IMG/VR virus record: IMGVR_UViG_3300032304_000454 | Coordinates: 1 to 38,159 of that record | DNA from: a virus | DNA: 38,159 nucleotides | Strand: one strand, 5' to 3' | The notes under the pieces: generated by a model | Databases searched by the model: none | Told to the model about the DNA's origin: nothing | Seen by the model: only the letters and a program-made list of their open reading frames with translations | Program-made: the position numbers and the translations under genes | Shown: positions 11,517 through 36,246 of the stretch, piece by piece | Layout of the letters: the number at the start of each line of letters is the position of its first letter | How positions within the stretch are numbered: the first letter of the stretch is position 1

Positions 11517-12122
11517 TTATTCAGCGCGGTAGTAAGCGCGCTTGAAAGCGTCAATGGCAACAGCCAGATTCACTTCGTTAGCTTCACTATCGCCCCGGGC
11601 GCTAGCCGTTTTGCATCGCGCTTTCATCGTGGTGAAGCTGTCGGTAATGTATTCAGCGAAACCCTTTGTAGGGGCTTTGGTCTTTGCTTCGCCTTCACGC
11701 TCAATCCGGCGAACAGCTGTCTTCAGGTCAGACAGTCGGTTAGACTTGTATTTGCTGAAGGCATCGCGGATGCCCTTGATCAGAGAATGCTTCACTGGGT
11801 CTTCATTCTTCATTTGACCGAAGGCCTGTTGACTATAGGACAGGCAAAAAGCCAGACTGACTTCAATGTTCCCAGTGGCGCTAGGCACATAGTCGGTGTT
11901 GTATTTCTTCGCTGGGTTGAGCTCTTGCCAGCGAAGCGCCCAGCCTTCAGTAAGCGCCGCCAAAGTTTCCTTTGGGACTTCAGTGGTGAAGCCGGGGCAT
12001 TCAGCGAATACATAGCGTGCCACTGTATCCATTCGTTCACCGCTGATCGCGGACTGATAGCCTGCATCCTTCAGGCTAGACACGGAAAGGGTCGACTGAC
12101 CCAGAGACTTTGTTGCTTTCAT
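11517..12122 (-). CDS. Hypothetical protein, 201 aa, paralogue 2
   Basis: Unknown function. Starts MKATKSLGQSTLSVSSLKDA with an excellent AAAGGAG upstream. By eye about half the positions are identical to the neighbouring 192-aa protein across the full length, including LRWQELNPA and SYSQQAFGQMKN. The duplication includes the flanking terminator, leader block and promoter, so a whole transcription unit was copied. High-level early expression is likely given the dedicated promoter and strong ribosome binding site. Confidence 0.78.
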   Translation of the reverse strand: MKATKSLGQSTLSVSSLKDAGYQSAISGERMDTVARYVFAECPGFTTEVPKETLAALTEGWALRWQELNPAKKYNTDYVPSATGNIEVSLAFCLSYSQQAFGQMKNEDPVKHSLIKGIRDAFSKYKSNRLSDLKTAVRRIEREGEAKTKAPTKGFAEYITDSFTTMKARCKTASARGDSEANEVNLAVAIDAFKRAYYRAE

Positions 12123-12177
12123 GATTTCTCCTTTGTTGAAAGCTACGGGCGCTGGATATCAGCGTTGCCGTAGTGTT

Positions 12178-12207
12178 GTTATGCCAGACCCTAGACACTA
12201 ATGTAAA
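12178..12207 (-). promoter_or_regulatory. Promoter of paralogue 2
   Basis: Minus strand: TTTACA (12207-12202), 18-nt spacer, CATAAC (12183-12178), directly preceded by the palindrome of block C. Confidence 0.55.
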
Positions 12208-12289
12208 GTTTCAGCGGGGCCTGAAAAGCTAAGTCATGCGCTAGCCACGCACACGCGTCACGCACGCGGCGACAAATAACTGGTATCAA
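12208..12289 (-). repeat. Leader block copy C
   Basis: Minus strand: TTGATACCAGTTATTTGTC (12289-12271), GC-rich CGTG stretch, GCATGACTTAGC, then palindrome TTTCAG/CTGAAA (12209-12226). Confidence 0.65.
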
Positions 12290-12290
12290 A

Positions 12291-12310
12291 GCCACCCTCG
12301 AAAGGATGGC
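12291..12310 (-). terminator. Probable terminator
   Basis: 7-bp stem (GCCACCC with GGATGGC, one G-T pair), 6-nt loop, then TTTGAT on the minus strand. The T-run is short. It lies just after the stop of the 64-aa gene. Confidence 0.6.
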
Positions 12311-12316
12311 TTGTGG

Positions 12317-12511
12317 TCAGCGGCGTGGGTATCTGCTGAACTCATCGCCCTCTATCTTGGCGATGAATGTTGCGCGTATCACTCCCTGTCGTATTGCGTG
12401 GAAGAACACAGCACGAGGGTTGATTGCACTAAGTGGGCGGCGTTCGCGTAGTGCGGCAAGCGTTGCCTGCCGCACATGGACACGCCAGATGTTGGTCTGG
12501 CCTGTAGTCAT
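12317..12511 (-). CDS. Hypothetical protein, 64 aa
   Basis: MTTGQTNIWRVHVRQATLAA, a small basic helical protein. The ATG at 12511 overlaps the upstream stop (TGATG). It may bind nucleic acid, but no family is recognised. Confidence 0.6.
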   Translation of the reverse strand: MTTGQTNIWRVHVRQATLAALRERRPLSAINPRAVFFHAIRQGVIRATFIAKIEGDEFSRYPRR

Positions 12512-12723
12512 CACTTACTCGGATGTGTTGTGTTGTGCCAATCCTGTGCAATCTCTTGCATCAGGTTGAGACTGACCAGCGAGCGTTCATGGTCCTTGGG
12601 GTCAAGGTGCATGACATACTGCACATGGCGGTTTATTGCCTCATACACAAACAGTGCGTTGAAGGGGTCAGCGTGCACGAACGAGTTGATCGTCTGCTGG
12701 ATGGTGGGTTGCTTTGCTTTCAT
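12511..12723 (-). CDS. Hypothetical protein, 70 aa
   Basis: MKAKQPTIQQTINSFVHADP, all-helical look, with TTAGGAG upstream. Coupled to the following 64-aa gene. Function unknown. Confidence 0.65.
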   Translation of the reverse strand: MKAKQPTIQQTINSFVHADPFNALFVYEAINRHVQYVMHLDPKDHERSLVSLNLMQEIAQDWHNTTHPSK

Positions 12724-12742
12724 TTCATTCTCCTAAGTAAGT

Positions 12743-12758
12743 GGGGGCCGAAGCCCCC
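12743..12758 (-). terminator. Hairpin, possible weak terminator
   Basis: GGGGGC/GCCCCC stem with a TTCG loop on the minus strand, followed by ACTTACTT, so there is no full T-run. It lies between the 63-aa and 70-aa genes and may reduce read-through or stabilise mRNA. Confidence 0.5.
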
Positions 12759-12763
12759 GTTGG

Positions 12764-12955
12764 TTAAACTGTCCAGCGTGCGGCGATCATCTTGCCGCGC
12801 TTGCCGTACAACGCCAGTGCATCATTGCTGTAGCACTGCATCCATTCGAGCGCTTCCCGCTCTGTTTTCGCCCAGTGAATCTTCTCAACGCCGTCCCACT
12901 TGACGCATACCATGTACTGTGTGAGCCACAGCCAAGCTGTCTTGATTGCTTTCAT
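12764..12955 (-). CDS. Hypothetical protein, 63 aa
   Basis: MKAIKTAWLWLTQYMVCVKW, followed by a WAKTEREALEWMQCY helix. It reads as a compact alpha/beta mini-domain. ACAGGAG lies upstream of the start. First gene of the leftward early region. Function unknown. Confidence 0.68.
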   Translation of the reverse strand: MKAIKTAWLWLTQYMVCVKWDGVEKIHWAKTEREALEWMQCYSNDALALYGKRGKMIAARWTV

Positions 12956-12999
12956 ATATATCTCCTGTTATGCACAGCACTATTGCTCTGCATGGTTCT

Positions 13000-13029
13000 G
13001 TTATGCCATAACTTCTAATGATTTGTAAA
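13000..13029 (-). promoter_or_regulatory. Leftward promoter
   Basis: Minus strand: TTTACA (13029-13024), 18-nt spacer, CATAAC (13005-13000), the same type as at 11373 and 12178. A degenerate palindrome copy lies upstream, near 13032-13049. Confidence 0.5.
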
Positions 13030-13186
13030 GTTTTGGCGGGATTCTGACCCCACCGTACCCCCACCCCTCAGCTCGCCAAATGGGTCCCCCGCACAGCCTA
13101 TACACTTAAACCTGCACAAATCACCCCACATTTTTCAAATTTCCAGCCAGCCGACCCCACCCCCCTCTATATAGAAACACCCCCCG

Positions 13187-13201
13187 GGTAGGATTCCTAC
13201 C
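13187..13201. promoter_or_regulatory. 15-bp palindrome before the terminase operon
   Basis: Perfect inverted repeat GGTAGG-ATT-CCTACC. It lies between the divergent early and late transcripts and could be an operator or leader hairpin. The rest of 13030-13186 shows C-runs but no gene. Confidence 0.45.
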
Positions 13202-13217
13202 TCCTTTACAAAAGACG

Positions 13218-13226
13218 TGGTATATT
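13218..13226 (+). promoter_or_regulatory. Possible extended -10 promoter for late genes
   Basis: TGGTATATT fits an extended -10 (TGN-TATATT) about 30 nt before the terminase small-subunit start. No good -35 is visible, so this is tentative. Confidence 0.35.
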
Positions 13227-13255
13227 TCGCGCACCAAAGGAGTATCGTTTCCTCC

Positions 13256-13846
13256 ATGACTGAACCGCTGATGCCTGATATTGACTGGGATGTCCCAATG
13301 CCTGCCTCTCTGGCCGAGGCAATGCCGGAGCTTTCTCCGAAAGAAGAGATCGAAATGCGGGCCCGCACCGTAAAGATGATCTCGGACCTCACAGGTAGAC
13401 CCCTAGAACCTACCGAAGAAAACCGCAGTCAAGCCCACGAGCTCATGGAGCAGGTCGTGGCAAACAAAACCCCACCCGATTTAACACAATACCCAAATGA
13501 GACTCTTGCCTATCTTGGCGGTATGGTGGCTATGTACAGCGGTATGGTTGTGCGTGACCTCGCTGATCTGAAGCTGTACGTTGTAAATAAACTACTGCAA
13601 GAATCTGAGCATCCAGACGGCAAAGTAAGGATGCAGGCACTTAAAGCGTTAGGTGAAGTTGATGGAGTTGATGCGTTTAAGAAACGCACCGAAGTCACAG
13701 TCAAGGCTCAGTCTATTGAAGAAGTGGAAAACGAGCTGGCAGAGACGCTAAACAAACTCAAACGCATCACAAGTCTGTCTCAACAGCCTGTGATGGATGT
13801 GCAAGCTAAGAGAATTGATAAGTTGCCTGATGAAACTGACGACTGA
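13256..13846 (+). CDS. Probable terminase small subunit
   Basis: 196-aa protein directly upstream of, and overlapping, the large terminase gene, which is the usual place for the DNA-recognition subunit of the packaging motor. The start MTEPLMPDIDWDVPMP at 13256 has AAAGGAG 13 nt upstream; a GTG further upstream is less likely. The protein is mostly helical with an acidic N-terminus and a charged C-terminal coiled-coil-like part (SIEEVENELAETLNKLKR). No family motif was seen, so the call rests on position and size. Confidence 0.6.
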   Translation: MTEPLMPDIDWDVPMPASLAEAMPELSPKEEIEMRARTVKMISDLTGRPLEPTEENRSQAHELMEQVVANKTPPDLTQYPNETLAYLGGMVAMYSGMVVRDLADLKLYVVNKLLQESEHPDGKVRMQALKALGEVDGVDAFKKRTEVTVKAQSIEEVENELAETLNKLKRITSLSQQPVMDVQAKRIDKLPDETDD

Positions 13847-15332
13847 ACACATTCAGGAGCTGGAGCAGGCCCTTCCGATGATGGCGGAGGACCAAAAACG
13901 CCGTACTTTGGAGCTTATCAAGACGTGGTATGCCCAAAAAGCGCAAGAAATGGGCAAGGACAACTTCCTAACCTTCATTGACCACGTGTATCCCGGCTAT
14001 AAAGTGGGTCCACACCACCGAAAACTAGCAAAAATCTTTGAAGAAATTGCTGCCGGTAAGAAAAAACGGGTGATTGTGAACATTGCACCCCGTCACGGCA
14101 AGTCAGAGATGATCAGTTACCTCGCACCAGCGTGGTTTTTGGGCAAATACCCACATAAAAAGATCATCATGTCCTCCCACACTGCCGATTTGGCGGTGAA
14201 CTTCGGTCGTAGGGTGCGAAATCTGGTGGGTTCGGACTCATACAAGGACATTTTTCCTCAAGTTGAGCTTCAGGCGGACTCAAAAAGCGCGTCTCGATGG
14301 GGTACCAACTTTCAGGGCGAGTATTTTGCGATCGGTGTTGGCGGCGCACTTGCTGGTCGCGGGGCTGACCTATTTATTATTGACGACCCCCACTCTGAAC
14401 AAGAAGCAAAAACTGGGCGTCCTGATGTTTTTCTCCCTGCTTGGGAGTGGTTTCAGTCTGGTCCTTTACAGCGTCTGATGCCGGGCGGCGCGATCATTAT
14501 TGTGATGACTCGGTGGTCTAAGCTGGACCTGACGGGCATGGTGATCAACCAGATGATCAGGGAGCCAGACGTAGAGCCTTGGGAGGTCGTAGAGTTTCCT
14601 GCAATTTTGAACGACAAACCGTTGTGGGGCGACTTTTGGTCGCTTGAAGAGCTTTTGTCTAAGAAAGCGGGCATGGACCCACGGTATTGGCAAGCCCAAT
14701 ACATGCAAAACCCAGTGTCTCAAGAAGGGGCGCTTATTAAGCGTGAGTGGTGGCAGATTTGGGACAAGGAATACCCCCCAGATTGCGAGTTCACCATCAT
14801 GTCTTTGGACGCTGCGCAGGAAGCAAACAACCGCTCAGATTACAACGCGCTTACAACGTGGGGTGTGTTCTTCAACGAGGAAACTAACAATTTCAACATT
14901 ATTTTGTTGAACGCTATCAAGAAGCGTTTAGAGTTTCCTGAGCTCAAGAAGCTTGTGCTGGAAGAGTACAGAGAGTGGGAGCCAGACGCGTTCGTGGTGG
15001 AGAAGAAGTCTAACGGTTCGGCGCTCTATCAGGAGCTGCGACGGATGGGCGTGCCTGTGGGGGAGTTTACTCCGGGCAAAGGACAGGACAAAATAGCGCG
15101 TGTGAATTCTGTGTCTGACCTTTTTGCCTCTGGCATAGTGTGGGCACCGGATCGCAGGTGGGCAAAGGAAGTAATGGAAGAGTGTAACGACTTTCCCAGC
15201 GGTACAAACGACGACCTTGTTGACTCCACGACACAAGCGCTGCTGCGGTTTAGGCAGGGCGGTTTCATCACACTTGATACTGATGAAAAAGAAGACCGCG
15301 TTTTCACTCGCCGCAGGGCAGCATACTATTGA
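13830..15332 (+). CDS. Terminase large subunit
   Basis: Packaging ATPase-nuclease, 500 aa. ATPase: Walker A APRHGKSE at 86-93 and Walker B LFIIDDP at 181-187, with an MTRW coupling segment near 226-229. The RNase H-like nuclease has acidic residues in LDAAQ (Asp327), VVEKK (Glu391) and DDLVDS (Asp461, Asp462, Asp465). The start MKLTTEHIQELEQ at 13830 overlaps the small subunit; an upstream ATG at 13797 would lengthen the overlap. All key residues are present, so the motor looks functional. Confidence 0.95.
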   Translation: MKLTTEHIQELEQALPMMAEDQKRRTLELIKTWYAQKAQEMGKDNFLTFIDHVYPGYKVGPHHRKLAKIFEEIAAGKKKRVIVNIAPRHGKSEMISYLAPAWFLGKYPHKKIIMSSHTADLAVNFGRRVRNLVGSDSYKDIFPQVELQADSKSASRWGTNFQGEYFAIGVGGALAGRGADLFIIDDPHSEQEAKTGRPDVFLPAWEWFQSGPLQRLMPGGAIIIVMTRWSKLDLTGMVINQMIREPDVEPWEVVEFPAILNDKPLWGDFWSLEELLSKKAGMDPRYWQAQYMQNPVSQEGALIKREWWQIWDKEYPPDCEFTIMSLDAAQEANNRSDYNALTTWGVFFNEETNNFNIILLNAIKKRLEFPELKKLVLEEYREWEPDAFVVEKKSNGSALYQELRRMGVPVGEFTPGKGQDKIARVNSVSDLFASGIVWAPDRRWAKEVMEECNDFPSGTNDDLVDSTTQALLRFRQGGFITLDTDEKEDRVFTRRRAAYY

Positions 15333-32524: not shown

Positions 32525-33385
32525 ATGCCACTACCAGCATCCGGCCCGATTTCATTCAACAACATCAACGTAGAGTTGGGTGTTGCGGGCACAACACAGG
32601 CTTCTTTGGGGCAGGCTTCTTATCGTGCGCTGGCGGGGGTTGCCTCTGGCCAAATCTCGATGAGCAACTTTTACGGTAAAGCCAACGAATTTACCTTTGC
32701 AATTGCCAGTAATCAAACTAACGCCAACTTGCGTACCCTTGCGGTCAATGCTGGGTGGAATCAGACTTCCAAGGTGGTTGCGACCATTAACTCCGGGGTC
32801 TACGTTAGCGCGAACTCCACAGGAACGCCGGGGCTTACAATTAACGGCTCTTTCCCAAATGGCGTGGAGCTGACTAATAACGGCTTCATTATCGGCATGG
32901 GGGGCGCTGGTGGCGGCGGCGGCGGTGTGACTGGTTTTGCGGGCGGAACCGCCCTTGCGGTGTCTATTCAGGTATCTATCAGAAACAACGGCACGGTAGG
33001 CGGTGGTGGTGGCGGTGGTGGCGCTGGCAACACCTACGACTCCTCTTACTGCGATAAAGGCGGCTGCTTCCCCGGCTCAACATACGGCGGTGGCGGTGGC
33101 GGTGGCGGGCGCACAGGTAGCACAAACTCCGCTGGTGGAGCTGGGCGAAATGCAACATATCCCGGCGGCGCGGGCGGGGCTGGTACGTCGGCCTCTGCGG
33201 GCGGTGGGGGTTCGCCCAACGGTAGCGGGGCACCATATGCAACTGCCGGGGCTTCGGGCGGAAACTGGGGCTCTGCCGGAGGAAGTGCTGCCGCTGGCGC
33301 GGGCGGCGCAGCTGGAGCGGCGGTCACCGGAAACGGCACTATCAATTGGTTAGCAACAGGTACTCGTTTAGGAGCAATTACATGA
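32525..33385 (+). CDS. Polyglycine-rich tail tip / receptor-binding protein
   Basis: 286 aa. The first 52 residues (MPLPASGPISFNNINVELGV through MSNFYGK) form an attachment domain typical of fibre-tip proteins. A beta section follows, then about 130 residues of Gly-rich runs (GGGGGG blocks separated by short loops). This looks like the polyglycine-II sandwich of gp38-type adhesins, whose variable loops contact the receptor. Receptor binding is inferred. ATGA overlap with the next gene. Confidence 0.78.
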   Translation: MPLPASGPISFNNINVELGVAGTTQASLGQASYRALAGVASGQISMSNFYGKANEFTFAIASNQTNANLRTLAVNAGWNQTSKVVATINSGVYVSANSTGTPGLTINGSFPNGVELTNNGFIIGMGGAGGGGGGVTGFAGGTALAVSIQVSIRNNGTVGGGGGGGGAGNTYDSSYCDKGGCFPGSTYGGGGGGGGRTGSTNSAGGAGRNATYPGGAGGAGTSASAGGGGSPNGSGAPYATAGASGGNWGSAGGSAAAGAGGAAGAAVTGNGTINWLATGTRLGAIT

Positions 33386-33960
33386 TCGGTTACAAATACG
33401 AAATCATCGCCGTTGATGAAGCGGCTCGCGTTATGGAAGTTGTTTATACCTCTCCGGGGCGTCAAACAATGCACATTGGGGTGCGGCTCCCTTCAGGCGA
33501 ACCTTTGCAGAACGTGATTGAGGCTTACGCCCCCGTGGCGTACTGGGCTGAGCAAGAGAAAAAAGTCACCTCCGTACAGGTCGGCACCTCTGGTGTTGTG
33601 GCTCCCGACATGTCACTTGCGGGGGTAAAAGCCCGCAAACTGCAGCAGTTAGCAGGGCATCGCTTTGAGATGGAGTGCCACGGAATTCGGTTTCACGACG
33701 AATATGTGAGCACGGACCGAAACGCACAATCGGCTATCGCTGCGGCGCAAGCCGCCGTTTCTGCTGGCACTTTGACCTCGGTTGGTTGGAAAACACGCGA
33801 GGGCCGTTGGCTTACTTTGGGCGCAACTGACATTACAGCTTTGGCTCAGGCAATAGCTGCGCATGTCCAAAACAGCTTTTCTCTGGAGCGTCAACTCGCA
33901 GAGCAAGTCAACAGCGCCACAACTGTGGAAGCCGTAGAGGCGATTGTATGGCCGGAGTAA
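33382..33960 (+). CDS. DUF4376 fibre-associated protein, 192 aa
   Basis: N-terminal part MIGYKYEIIAVDEAARVMEV, then a C-terminal domain (about 85-190) with the DUF4376 pattern: VKARKLQQLAGHRFE, TDRNAQSAIAAAQAA, VGWKTREGRWLTLGATDITA. This domain is commonly next to or part of phage fibre proteins, perhaps as an assembly or attachment part. Start at 33382 chosen for the ATGA overlap. It overlaps the ATP-grasp gene by 13 nt. Confidence 0.8.
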   Translation: MIGYKYEIIAVDEAARVMEVVYTSPGRQTMHIGVRLPSGEPLQNVIEAYAPVAYWAEQEKKVTSVQVGTSGVVAPDMSLAGVKARKLQQLAGHRFEMECHGIRFHDEYVSTDRNAQSAIAAAQAAVSAGTLTSVGWKTREGRWLTLGATDITALAQAIAAHVQNSFSLERQLAEQVNSATTVEAVEAIVWPE

Positions 33961-34838
33961 AACTCTATATGACGCTGGAAGACCAGCGCATGGGGATTGC
34001 TTCCTACCAGTCAACTCTGGCGCGTATTGGGGTGTCTATTACATCCATCCCATCCGAAGGCGTCTCGGTGCTGCCCCTTACCGACCGGGCCACACTTAAC
34101 ATGGTGGGCCATCAGGGCTTCATGCCTCAAGAATCCCTCGATAAGATTCTGAACAAGGACCGACTTCATGAGACTGGCCTTCCTACCTTGCCGACAACCG
34201 TAGTTGCCCTGCCGTATCTTGCGCCTCCGGGAACTTTTGTAAAGTCGCGCAACTCTGTTGTAGGTGGCTATGTGTACCAGCCGCAGATCGCGTTCCCACA
34301 TGAAGATTTAGATATTCATTTTTCAGTAAACGCTCAGGGGCGCGTTCATGTAATTGCCGCTCACCGACACCAGCATCTTGGTGGTAAAAAGCCCGGCACA
34401 CTGCGGATGGCGACTACTGAAGAGTGCGGCGACTTGGTTTCGCATATTGAGGCCGCGTGCCAAGCGTTGGAAATTAAAGGGGGCATGCACGACGTCGCTT
34501 TTCTTATGCACGAAGGTGTATGGAAGGCCATTGACTGGAACCCTAGAGCCCCGTTTCTTTACACTGATGGTGTAGCAGCGAAATACCCGTGCCTCGACGG
34601 CGCAATTGCGCACATGCTGGGTTTGCCTTTGCCGAACATCGCACCCGCCGTTTTTGTCAACCGGGCTTACTGGGATCGACCCATACCCCTGAATAAGCGG
34701 AGCGTGGTTGAGTCTTTTGGTTTGACACCTAGACGAGATGAGGGTCGCCAGATTGACGGCTTTGTTCGCGTAAACGGTGTTGGCGTTTCAGAAGCTGATG
34801 TAAACTCAAAGTTTGATGCAATGGAGGCTGCGCTGTGA
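33948..34838 (+). CDS. ATP-grasp-like enzyme, 296 aa
   Basis: Resembles ATP-grasp ligases, which join a carboxylate to an amine using ATP. Seen: a start like the central subdomain (SLDKILNKDRLHETGLPTLP), FVKSRNSVVGG with candidate nucleotide Lys99, an acidic EDLDIHFSVN segment near 119-128, and KGGMHDVAFLMHEGVWKAID followed by WNPRAP (Asp196, Asn198 as metal ligands). The N-terminal pre-ATP domain seems short. The substrate is unknown. It may modify a peptide, a surface sugar or amino acid, or a virion component. GTGA coupling to the next gene. An ATG at 33969 is an alternative start. Confidence 0.6.
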   Translation: MAGVKLYMTLEDQRMGIASYQSTLARIGVSITSIPSEGVSVLPLTDRATLNMVGHQGFMPQESLDKILNKDRLHETGLPTLPTTVVALPYLAPPGTFVKSRNSVVGGYVYQPQIAFPHEDLDIHFSVNAQGRVHVIAAHRHQHLGGKKPGTLRMATTEECGDLVSHIEAACQALEIKGGMHDVAFLMHEGVWKAIDWNPRAPFLYTDGVAAKYPCLDGAIAHMLGLPLPNIAPAVFVNRAYWDRPIPLNKRSVVESFGLTPRRDEGRQIDGFVRVNGVGVSEADVNSKFDAMEAAL

Positions 34839-35659
34839 AATTTCTTTTTGGGTTGTTGCTGTGGGTGTCGCTGAGTGTTTCTGCGAACCCTGTGAGTATT
34901 GTCACTACATCTGGTCCGGGGTCGCTTTCTGACCAAGTTGCACGGCACATTCAGCCGCTTCTGTCCAAAGAGCTGGGCGTTGAGGTTGTAGTTGTCAATG
35001 CTCCCGGCGCAAACGGCTTGGTGGGGCTTCGCGCTTTCCACCAGCTTGCTGGCAACCATTTGCTGATTGGCAGCTTTTCCGTGCCGTATGTGGCCAAAAC
35101 AACCCCACAAAAAGATTTTGATCCTCTGGTGGACTTCGCCCCAGTTATGGGTCTGACGCACACACCACTGAACATCACGGTGCCCGCAAACTCCCCAGCC
35201 AAAGACATGGCTTCTTTGGCAAAGCTGTCAAAAGAAAAGGGCGGGCTCAAAGGTGGAACATCCCACCCATCGACAAACATCTCGATGGCGCTCATCGACA
35301 AAGCTTTTGGTGCAACCACCGAGCCAATCAACTACAAGCAGACTGCGCAGCTTTACACCGAGCTGGCAGCAGGGCTTTTGGACTATACGGTTGGTGGCGG
35401 AAACCAAGCCTCAGTGGCTTTGGTGCAAAGCGGACATCTGCGCAATATAGCCCGTGCCGATCAAGTGGGCATCCCCGACTTTTCGTGGACGGCTCTTTTT
35501 GTTAAGTCGGGCAATGAAAACGGCCCTTTGGCAAATGCGGCGAAGCGAGCGATTAATGCCGACTCGATGCGCGGCTTGTCCCAGCCATTCTTCAAGGCTG
35601 ATGCTTCGGCAATGCGAGCTCAAGTGCAACGTGAGTACACCCTGATCCCCGCGCCATGA
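34835..35659 (+). CDS. TctC/Bug-type periplasmic solute-binding protein
   Basis: 274-aa secreted protein of the TctC/Bug family, extracytoplasmic receptors for carboxylates and related small molecules. Signal peptide MKFLFGLLLWVSLSVSA, cleavage after Ala17; no lipobox. Family blocks: SIVTTSGPGSLSDQVARHIQ (21-40), VVVVNAPGANGLVG (51-64), LLIGS, DFDPLVDFAPVMGLTHTPLN (94-113), GGTSHPSTNI (140-149), INYKQTAQLYTELAAGLLDY (165-184), SGHLRNIA (199-206). Typical members are about 320 aa, so this is compact. No transporter partners are in the window. It starts at a GTG overlapping the ATP-grasp stop. It is probably host-derived (Burkholderiales-type). Confidence 0.82.
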   Translation: MKFLFGLLLWVSLSVSANPVSIVTTSGPGSLSDQVARHIQPLLSKELGVEVVVVNAPGANGLVGLRAFHQLAGNHLLIGSFSVPYVAKTTPQKDFDPLVDFAPVMGLTHTPLNITVPANSPAKDMASLAKLSKEKGGLKGGTSHPSTNISMALIDKAFGATTEPINYKQTAQLYTELAAGLLDYTVGGGNQASVALVQSGHLRNIARADQVGIPDFSWTALFVKSGNENGPLANAAKRAINADSMRGLSQPFFKADASAMRAQVQREYTLIPAP

Positions 35660-36246
35660 CCGACCAAATCGCCCAACCAAGCCTTATGCGCAACCAAACT
35701 ATTTGTGAGGTTGAAGTTGATAACGGTCGAAAATTGCGGTTGTACGACAGTGTGTTTGATATGGCGTACCGATCAAAACTGTACCAATATATGCACGGCT
35801 CTTTTTTTAAAATTGGCTGGGCGGATGGGCTAACCCCAGAAAAAAGAGGGTATCAGTTTTTGCACTCCGGGCATTCGGAGGAAGATTTAAAGTCCGTTGG
35901 GCTTATTGAACACCTGCAGCAGACGCCAGTTGGCCAAGAGCTGGTGGGCTACACCCTAAATAAAGCGGTCTTAAATCTGTCGACACCAGCGGACGTTAAC
36001 TTTGTCCACACACATCCAGAGGACAAAGTGCTTCTGTACTACGTGAATTTGGATTGGGAAGACGGTTGGCACGGGGAGACTTTATTTTTTGACGAGTCCG
36101 CCAAGAACATCATGTTTGCCAGCGCTTACACGCCGGGGCGGATCATTGCTTTTGATGCAAAAATTCCGCACACCATACGCCCGCAGTCGCACATTGCCAC
36201 GTTTTACAGAATGACTTTTGCGTTGGTGCTTACGAAAAACCCATAA
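35656..36246 (+). CDS. 2-oxoglutarate/Fe(II) oxygenase-like protein
   Basis: 196 aa, cytoplasmic. The double-stranded beta-helix pattern is visible: VHTHPEDKVLLYYVNLDW, GWHGETLFFDES, YTPGRIIAFDAKIPHTIRP, FYRMT. Candidate iron ligands are His118 or His120 with Glu122/Asp123 and distal His172; Arg185 could bind 2-oxoglutarate. Such enzymes hydroxylate proteins, nucleic acids or small molecules. ATGA overlap with the binding-protein gene makes it part of the same cassette. Substrate unknown. Confidence 0.72.
   Translation: MTDQIAQPSLMRNQTICEVEVDNGRKLRLYDSVFDMAYRSKLYQYMHGSFFKIGWADGLTPEKRGYQFLHSGHSEEDLKSVGLIEHLQQTPVGQELVGYTLNKAVLNLSTPADVNFVHTHPEDKVLLYYVNLDWEDGWHGETLFFDESAKNIMFASAYTPGRIIAFDAKIPHTIRPQSHIATFYRMTFALVLTKNP

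Follow-up and report, generated by a model that had tools for sequence, protein, structure and literature searches.

Why would a phage keep genes for an ATP-grasp enzyme and a solute-binding protein between its receptor-binding tip and its lysis genes? The question is raised by a cassette of four genes, here called A, B, C, and D, at positions 33382-36246 of a viral record (Table 1); the 38,159 bases of that record that we analysed are referred to below as the window. The sequence-only reading of this DNA had described the four genes as joined by overlapping starts and stops, and all four frames are indeed intact, with overlaps of 13 nt between A and B, 4 nt between B and C (GTGA), and 4 nt between C and D (ATGA). 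The gene for a Gly-rich adhesin overlaps A by a further 4 nt, and is itself preceded by genes for an S74-chaperone tail protein and a second tail-type protein. On the other side of the cassette are the lysis-side genes, which encode small proteins and a lysozyme (PF00959, 2e-37). The terminase of the window is nearest to those of phages DSL-LC04 and 023Pt_psg01 and of the pelagiphages HTVC027P and HTVC023P.

Table 1. Adhesin gene and cassette in the window
Feature	Position	Strand	Evidence
Gp38-like Gly-rich tail adhesin	32525..33385	+	PF05268 1e-5; PHROG tail fiber match
A, DUF4376 tail-fibre-type protein	33382..33960	+	PF14301 7.5e-18; phrog_10508 5.8e-27
B, predicted ATP-grasp ligase, PurK/L-amino-acid-ligase-like	33948..34838	+	AlphaFold2 model, Foldseek, profile matches
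C, TctC/Bug solute-binding protein, GTG start	34835..35659	+	PF03401 4.4e-13
D, oxygenase-like protein	35656..36246	+	NCBIfam 2OG-Fe_FlmC 2.2e-14

Identities of the four gene products

The assignment of A to DUF4376 was borne out, with a score of 65.4 bits against a cut-off of 25 for PF14301, and the DUF4376 part of the protein matches the tail fiber/tail assembly chaperone of phage phiPMW. In one related contig (L028) B carries, as an in-frame fusion, a region equivalent to A residues 1-73, and the DUF4376 part has been lost. A stand-alone domain resembling the N-terminus of A follows the adhesin in two further contigs (L024 and L026), in which no B was seen. (We entertained the idea that contig L040 holds a second fusion of a tail domain to B; this was rejected since the N-terminal extension of its B, approximately 105 amino acids long, matches no recognised family.)

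B matched nothing in Pfam, PHROG, or NCBIfam, and a PDB sequence search with B returned nothing meaningful. The structure of B could be predicted with confidence by AlphaFold2 when 12 homologues were used (pLDDT 87.7, pTM 0.83); distant homologues were needed for this, as the pLDDT was 35.5 with only 5 close sequences. The best PDB match of the model found with Foldseek was PurK (1.6e-13), followed by L-amino-acid ligases, PylC, biotin carboxylase, and carbamoyl-phosphate synthase, and a structure alignment of the model gave a VIA Z of 16.1 (277 aligned, rmsd 5.0). Moreover, K99, D196, N198, and R200, which correspond to the ATP/Mg residues of the fold (the central-domain Lys and the acidic/Asn/Arg cluster xNPR), are invariant in the 12 homologues. 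The model and these residues uphold the earlier description of B as an ATP-grasp protein and support a fold close to that of carboxylate-activating ligases. Weak matches of the B profile to bacterial frames of CarB (carbamoyl-phosphate synthase) length, set out below, are independent evidence for the ATP-grasp identity. Note that B has this fold and the ATP-grasp motifs in common with the PurK, L-amino-acid ligase, and biotin carboxylase branch but is shorter and only 7-14% identical to its members in structure alignments; the likeness of the model to PurK appears to be one of fold alone, and we do not claim a purine function. One relative of B (in contig L030) has a weak match to PF15632, ATPgrasp_Ter (7.6e-4).

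C scored 49.8 bits against PF03401 (curated cut-off 27), its sequence matched Bug27 at 5.8e-11, and a profile of nine phage homologues matched Bug27 at 1.7e-28. The N-terminal signal sequence of C, MKFLFGLLLWVSLSVSA-NP, is without a lipobox, and every C homologue that we examined, judged from its sequence rather than with a dedicated predictor, had a hydrophobic N-terminus followed by a signal-peptidase-like site. The TctC/Bug protein with a signal peptide proposed at the outset was thus recovered, and C is predicted to be periplasmic. Phage C retains part of the TctC signature P-F-x-A-G-G-x-x-D, as PGSxxD or AGGxxD: the first Gly and the Asp of this loop are conserved, other residues stand in for the Phe that borders the pocket, and Ser mostly takes the place of the second Gly. 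With its loop partly changed, C could have an unusual ligand or could no longer serve in transport.

D has a weak match to the Pfam oxygenase PF13640 (0.077), and a PDB sequence search gave weak prolyl-hydroxylase matches only. Its match to the NCBIfam model 2OG-Fe_FlmC, at 53.9 bits, falls under the curated cut-off of 240 bits, and the same FlmC-type model matches all 18 members that we aligned of the D family, which is present in 23 viral loci. These 18 members have an invariant HxH...H...R pattern. The iron triad of the canonical enzymes is HxD/E...H, and no invariant acidic residue occurs two positions after the first His in the 18 members. D had been read as a 2OG oxygenase from its sequence pattern; the FlmC model agrees with this, but the score below the cut-off and the HxH in place of HxD/E do not, and we therefore describe D as oxygenase-like, with membership of the 2OG-Fe(II) oxygenases unproven. 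(PHROG 274, which is named 'DNA endonuclease V', matches oxygenase-like proteins of the D family. We dropped this identity for D because nothing else in the data agrees with it and the FlmC model fits every one of the 18 members; PHROG 274 is probably misnamed.)

B and C recur together in viral contigs

B occurs in 13 IMG/VR contigs, the window included, that represent approximately six lineages and whose B proteins are 22-59% identical to that of the window (Table 2). TctC was present in all 13, usually directly downstream of B, and a Gp38-like adhesin lies upstream of the module in most of those contigs that have this flank. (Two of the contigs, L001 and L006, are near identical in the module region.) By contrast, TctC was absent from all eight of the searched contigs that have D without B; comparison with the seven D-bearing contigs that have B gives a Fisher p of 1.6e-4, a value that is indicative only, since both counts are affected by where contigs end and the contigs, being related, are not independent. 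The finding that B and TctC are together in every viral sequence with B suggests that the two probably have one common job.

Table 2. Gene order in the 13 B-bearing contigs (GP38, Gp38-like adhesin)
Contig	Order
Window, L001, L006, L004	GP38-A-B-C-D
L009, L010	GP38-A-B-C, without D
L034	GP38-A-B-C
L028	GP38-D-B-C (B with the A N-terminal domain fused)
L029, L030	GP38-D-A-B-C
L037	Contig begins inside B, then C
L040	B-C
L035 (216 kb)	A-B with two PP-loop-like enzymes, Gly-rich tail-like protein, TctC, TctA, second possible binding protein

The sequence-only reading had called for a check on whether the four genes co-occur. The answer is a divided one: B was always accompanied by C, which runs against the refuting outcome named in that reading (neighbours that never co-occur in related phages), but D accompanies them in only 7 of the 13 contigs and is common where both are missing. 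D was rejected as a core part of the set because contigs L009, L010, L034, L035, and L040 carry B and C without it. The true unit is B with C, usually with A upstream, and D is a separable, optional member. The set stays together even though the gene order varies, D being found on either side of it.

The spacing of the genes is also conserved. The overlap between A and B was 13 nt in all seven measured contigs of the window, L034, or L035 type (the window, L001, L004, L009, L010, L034, and L035) and 4 nt in L029 and L030, and that between B and C was 4 nt in six contigs, with a spacing of 3-9 nt in distant ones. For those pairs close enough to measure, the dN/dS of A, B, and C was approximately 0.03-0.2, well below 1, and the three genes are thus under purifying selection. 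Recurrence in other phages with matching overlaps, together with these values, argues that the cassette is more than a chance assembly.

Among the window cassette and all of the searched records, TctA was found in contig L035 alone (PF01970, 7.4e-39, membrane subunit), and a complete TTT transporter was not seen in the window cassette. In L035, the genes for TctC, the TctA-family membrane protein, and the second possible binding protein stand in a row at 11814-14766, beside those for two PP-loop-type enzymes.

The pair in wider searches

That such a combination is unusual for phages was confirmed: a collection of 50,697 phage records yielded neither B nor a clear TctC. (Unannotated faecal 'Bacteriophage sp.' records did give TctC and TctA matches of low identity, which we did not accept as clear phage TctC.) We also searched 797 proteobacterial genomes with the B profile HMM, 399 from the order and 398 from the phylum to which a Comamonadaceae MAG belongs; the best matches were short and weak (E 3e-5 to 7e-4), most of them in CarB-length frames over an ATP-grasp motif region. 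There was accordingly no B in these roughly 800 genomes, and a scan of bacterial and archaeal genomes gave no B relative either. One of two bacterial matches to the C profile sits in the Comamonadaceae MAG, which has approximately 60 TctC matches, and the hosts of phages with B and C may have dozens of orphan TctC proteins.

The pair is not described in the open-licence papers that we found. A report on SUP05 viral contigs describes auxiliary tctA and 2OG-Fe(II) oxygenase genes (PMC4164917), so that both functional classes are found there too in environmental phages, but tctA was there a domain match only, and we saw no mention of TctC or of an ATP-grasp pair. A tricarboxylate-transport gene has been reported in another viral scaffold. 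In pelagiphages of the HTVC023P type, the kind of phage to which the terminase of the window is nearest, clustered 2OG-Fe(II) oxygenases are partnered with ferrochelatase (PMC9599517), whereas the partners in the window are an ATP-grasp protein and TctC.

The slot between the adhesin and lysis genes

In relatives without B and C, the slot is filled, by our reading of the sequences, with fatty-acid-desaturase-like and several oxygenase-like proteins. Putative desaturases lie between the adhesin and an oxygenase at L024:4409-5937 and L026:3762-4535 (identified by eye; one PHROG scan gave no significant match), and contigs L019, L021, and L027 have several different oxygenase-like genes in series after the adhesin. 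Three cultured or complete relatives have annotated 2OG-Fe(II) oxygenases in the tail region. Because oxygenases and other cargo occupy this slot in relatives that do without B and C, D appears to be an ordinary occupant of it and the B-C pair an unusual one.

A possible role in carboxylate capture and activation

From the constant pairing of B with C, what is known of the biochemistry of each family, and the presence of TctA in one relative, we suggest that the two genes are a conserved unit of these phages, coupled in translation, whose products capture a small carboxylic acid and activate it; to this reading we give a probability of roughly 0.4. The order of events would be as follows. C would be secreted to the periplasm, bind a carboxylate, and pass it to the TctAB permease of the host (L035 would supply its own TctA); B, in the cytoplasm, would use ATP to convert the carboxylate to an acyl phosphate and then couple it to an amine or other acceptor; and D, when present, may tailor the substrate or product. 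The sequence-only reading had proposed three functions, none of which is proven. The first, in which the enzymes make or modify a small molecule that C binds, is the best supported in this modified form; the signal sequence of C and the TctA of one relative suggest that C serves in carboxylate uptake and does not bind what B makes.

Betaproteobacteria commonly have orphan TctC proteins, with no permease gene linked to them, and import of the substrates of adjacent carboxylate enzymes has been proposed as their role (PMC5812351, PMC8556258). The window resembles clusters of this kind, for example that of arylmalonate decarboxylase (PMC5812351), in having a TctC without TctAB beside a possible carboxylate-acting enzyme; it differs in being phage-borne, in the neighbouring ATP-grasp and tail genes, and in the partly altered signature loop. 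The PstS of marine viruses is likewise a phage-supplied soluble binding protein for a host transporter (PMC6359870), though of another transporter family and without a coupled ligase. In the unit described here, by contrast, a solute-binding protein of the periplasm would be tied to a ligase that uses ATP, and the two genes appear to be obligate partners.

The acceptor may be tail-associated, as the adhesin gene lies next to the unit and the A N-terminal domain is fused to B in L028; a small-molecule product is equally compatible with the data. A specific version of the former, in which the ligase docks through the tail-fibre domain and attaches a carboxylate scavenged by TctC to the receptor-binding tip, is improbable as it stands.

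Modification of the virion tip had also been put forward in its own right. Here the Gly-rich adhesin, or A as its assembly partner, would receive a covalent modification from B (and D) while the virion is put together, and C would secure a building block or be a passenger. We consider this unlikely, yet the L028 fusion and the position of the genes make it a serious rival and give it some weight, as the upstream neighbour of B is a tail-fibre-type protein. Most loci have the adhesin upstream, and where B and C are missing the D family mostly follows the adhesin; both would suit it, as would the oxygenases in the tail regions of relatives and the extension on the L040 B. However, that extension lacks a match to a tail family, a simple in-frame deletion can fuse neighbours, and C, with its signal sequence, would be out of reach of a tail being built in the cytoplasm, so that tip modification alone leaves the secreted C unaccounted for.

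An equally doubtful alternative is that the slot is a hot spot for independent cargo, with C as a nutrient-uptake helper, B as a ligase, and D as an oxygenase in separate roles. The different occupants of the slot in related phages and the separability of D are as expected from this, but the strict linkage of B and C across some six lineages, with a conserved overlap and through reordering, is hard to explain.

Alteration of the cell surface to block superinfection, the remaining function proposed earlier, is a possible role but quite an improbable one. B and D would modify an envelope component and C, predicted to be periplasmic, would act there; the desaturase-like and oxygenase-like proteins found elsewhere in the slot could conceivably alter envelope lipids. 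Against this, the cassette has no envelope-targeting domain and no glycan or lipid enzyme, C is unlike a lipoprotein or membrane protein, and the position of the cassette suggests late expression. Lastly, it is very unlikely that C imitates a TctC with bound ligand, for example the Bordetella BctC that is required for signalling through BctE (PMC5812351), and so alters a host two-component sensor; the altered pocket motif of phage C would fit, but the linkage to the ATP-grasp gene and the TctA of L035 would be left unexplained.

The preferred reading, in which B and C capture and activate a carboxylate, makes the pair a testable entry to the questions of why phages site oxygenases and other enzymes beside adhesins and how they tap host carboxylate uptake.

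Further loci with related genes

A repeat-rich protein (MFGI..FAQTPFASLAG) is encoded before the tail genes in one contig (L001:3922-4761) and after TctC, in place of D, in another (L009:3240-4151). In a 63-kb viral contig, TctC is followed directly by a distant D-like protein (L033:4392-6315), with a PP-loop-like protein nearby. A 337-kb contig (L002) has five TctC matches over the cut-off, and DctP-like, PP-loop-like, and 2OG-like proteins are encoded near two of them.
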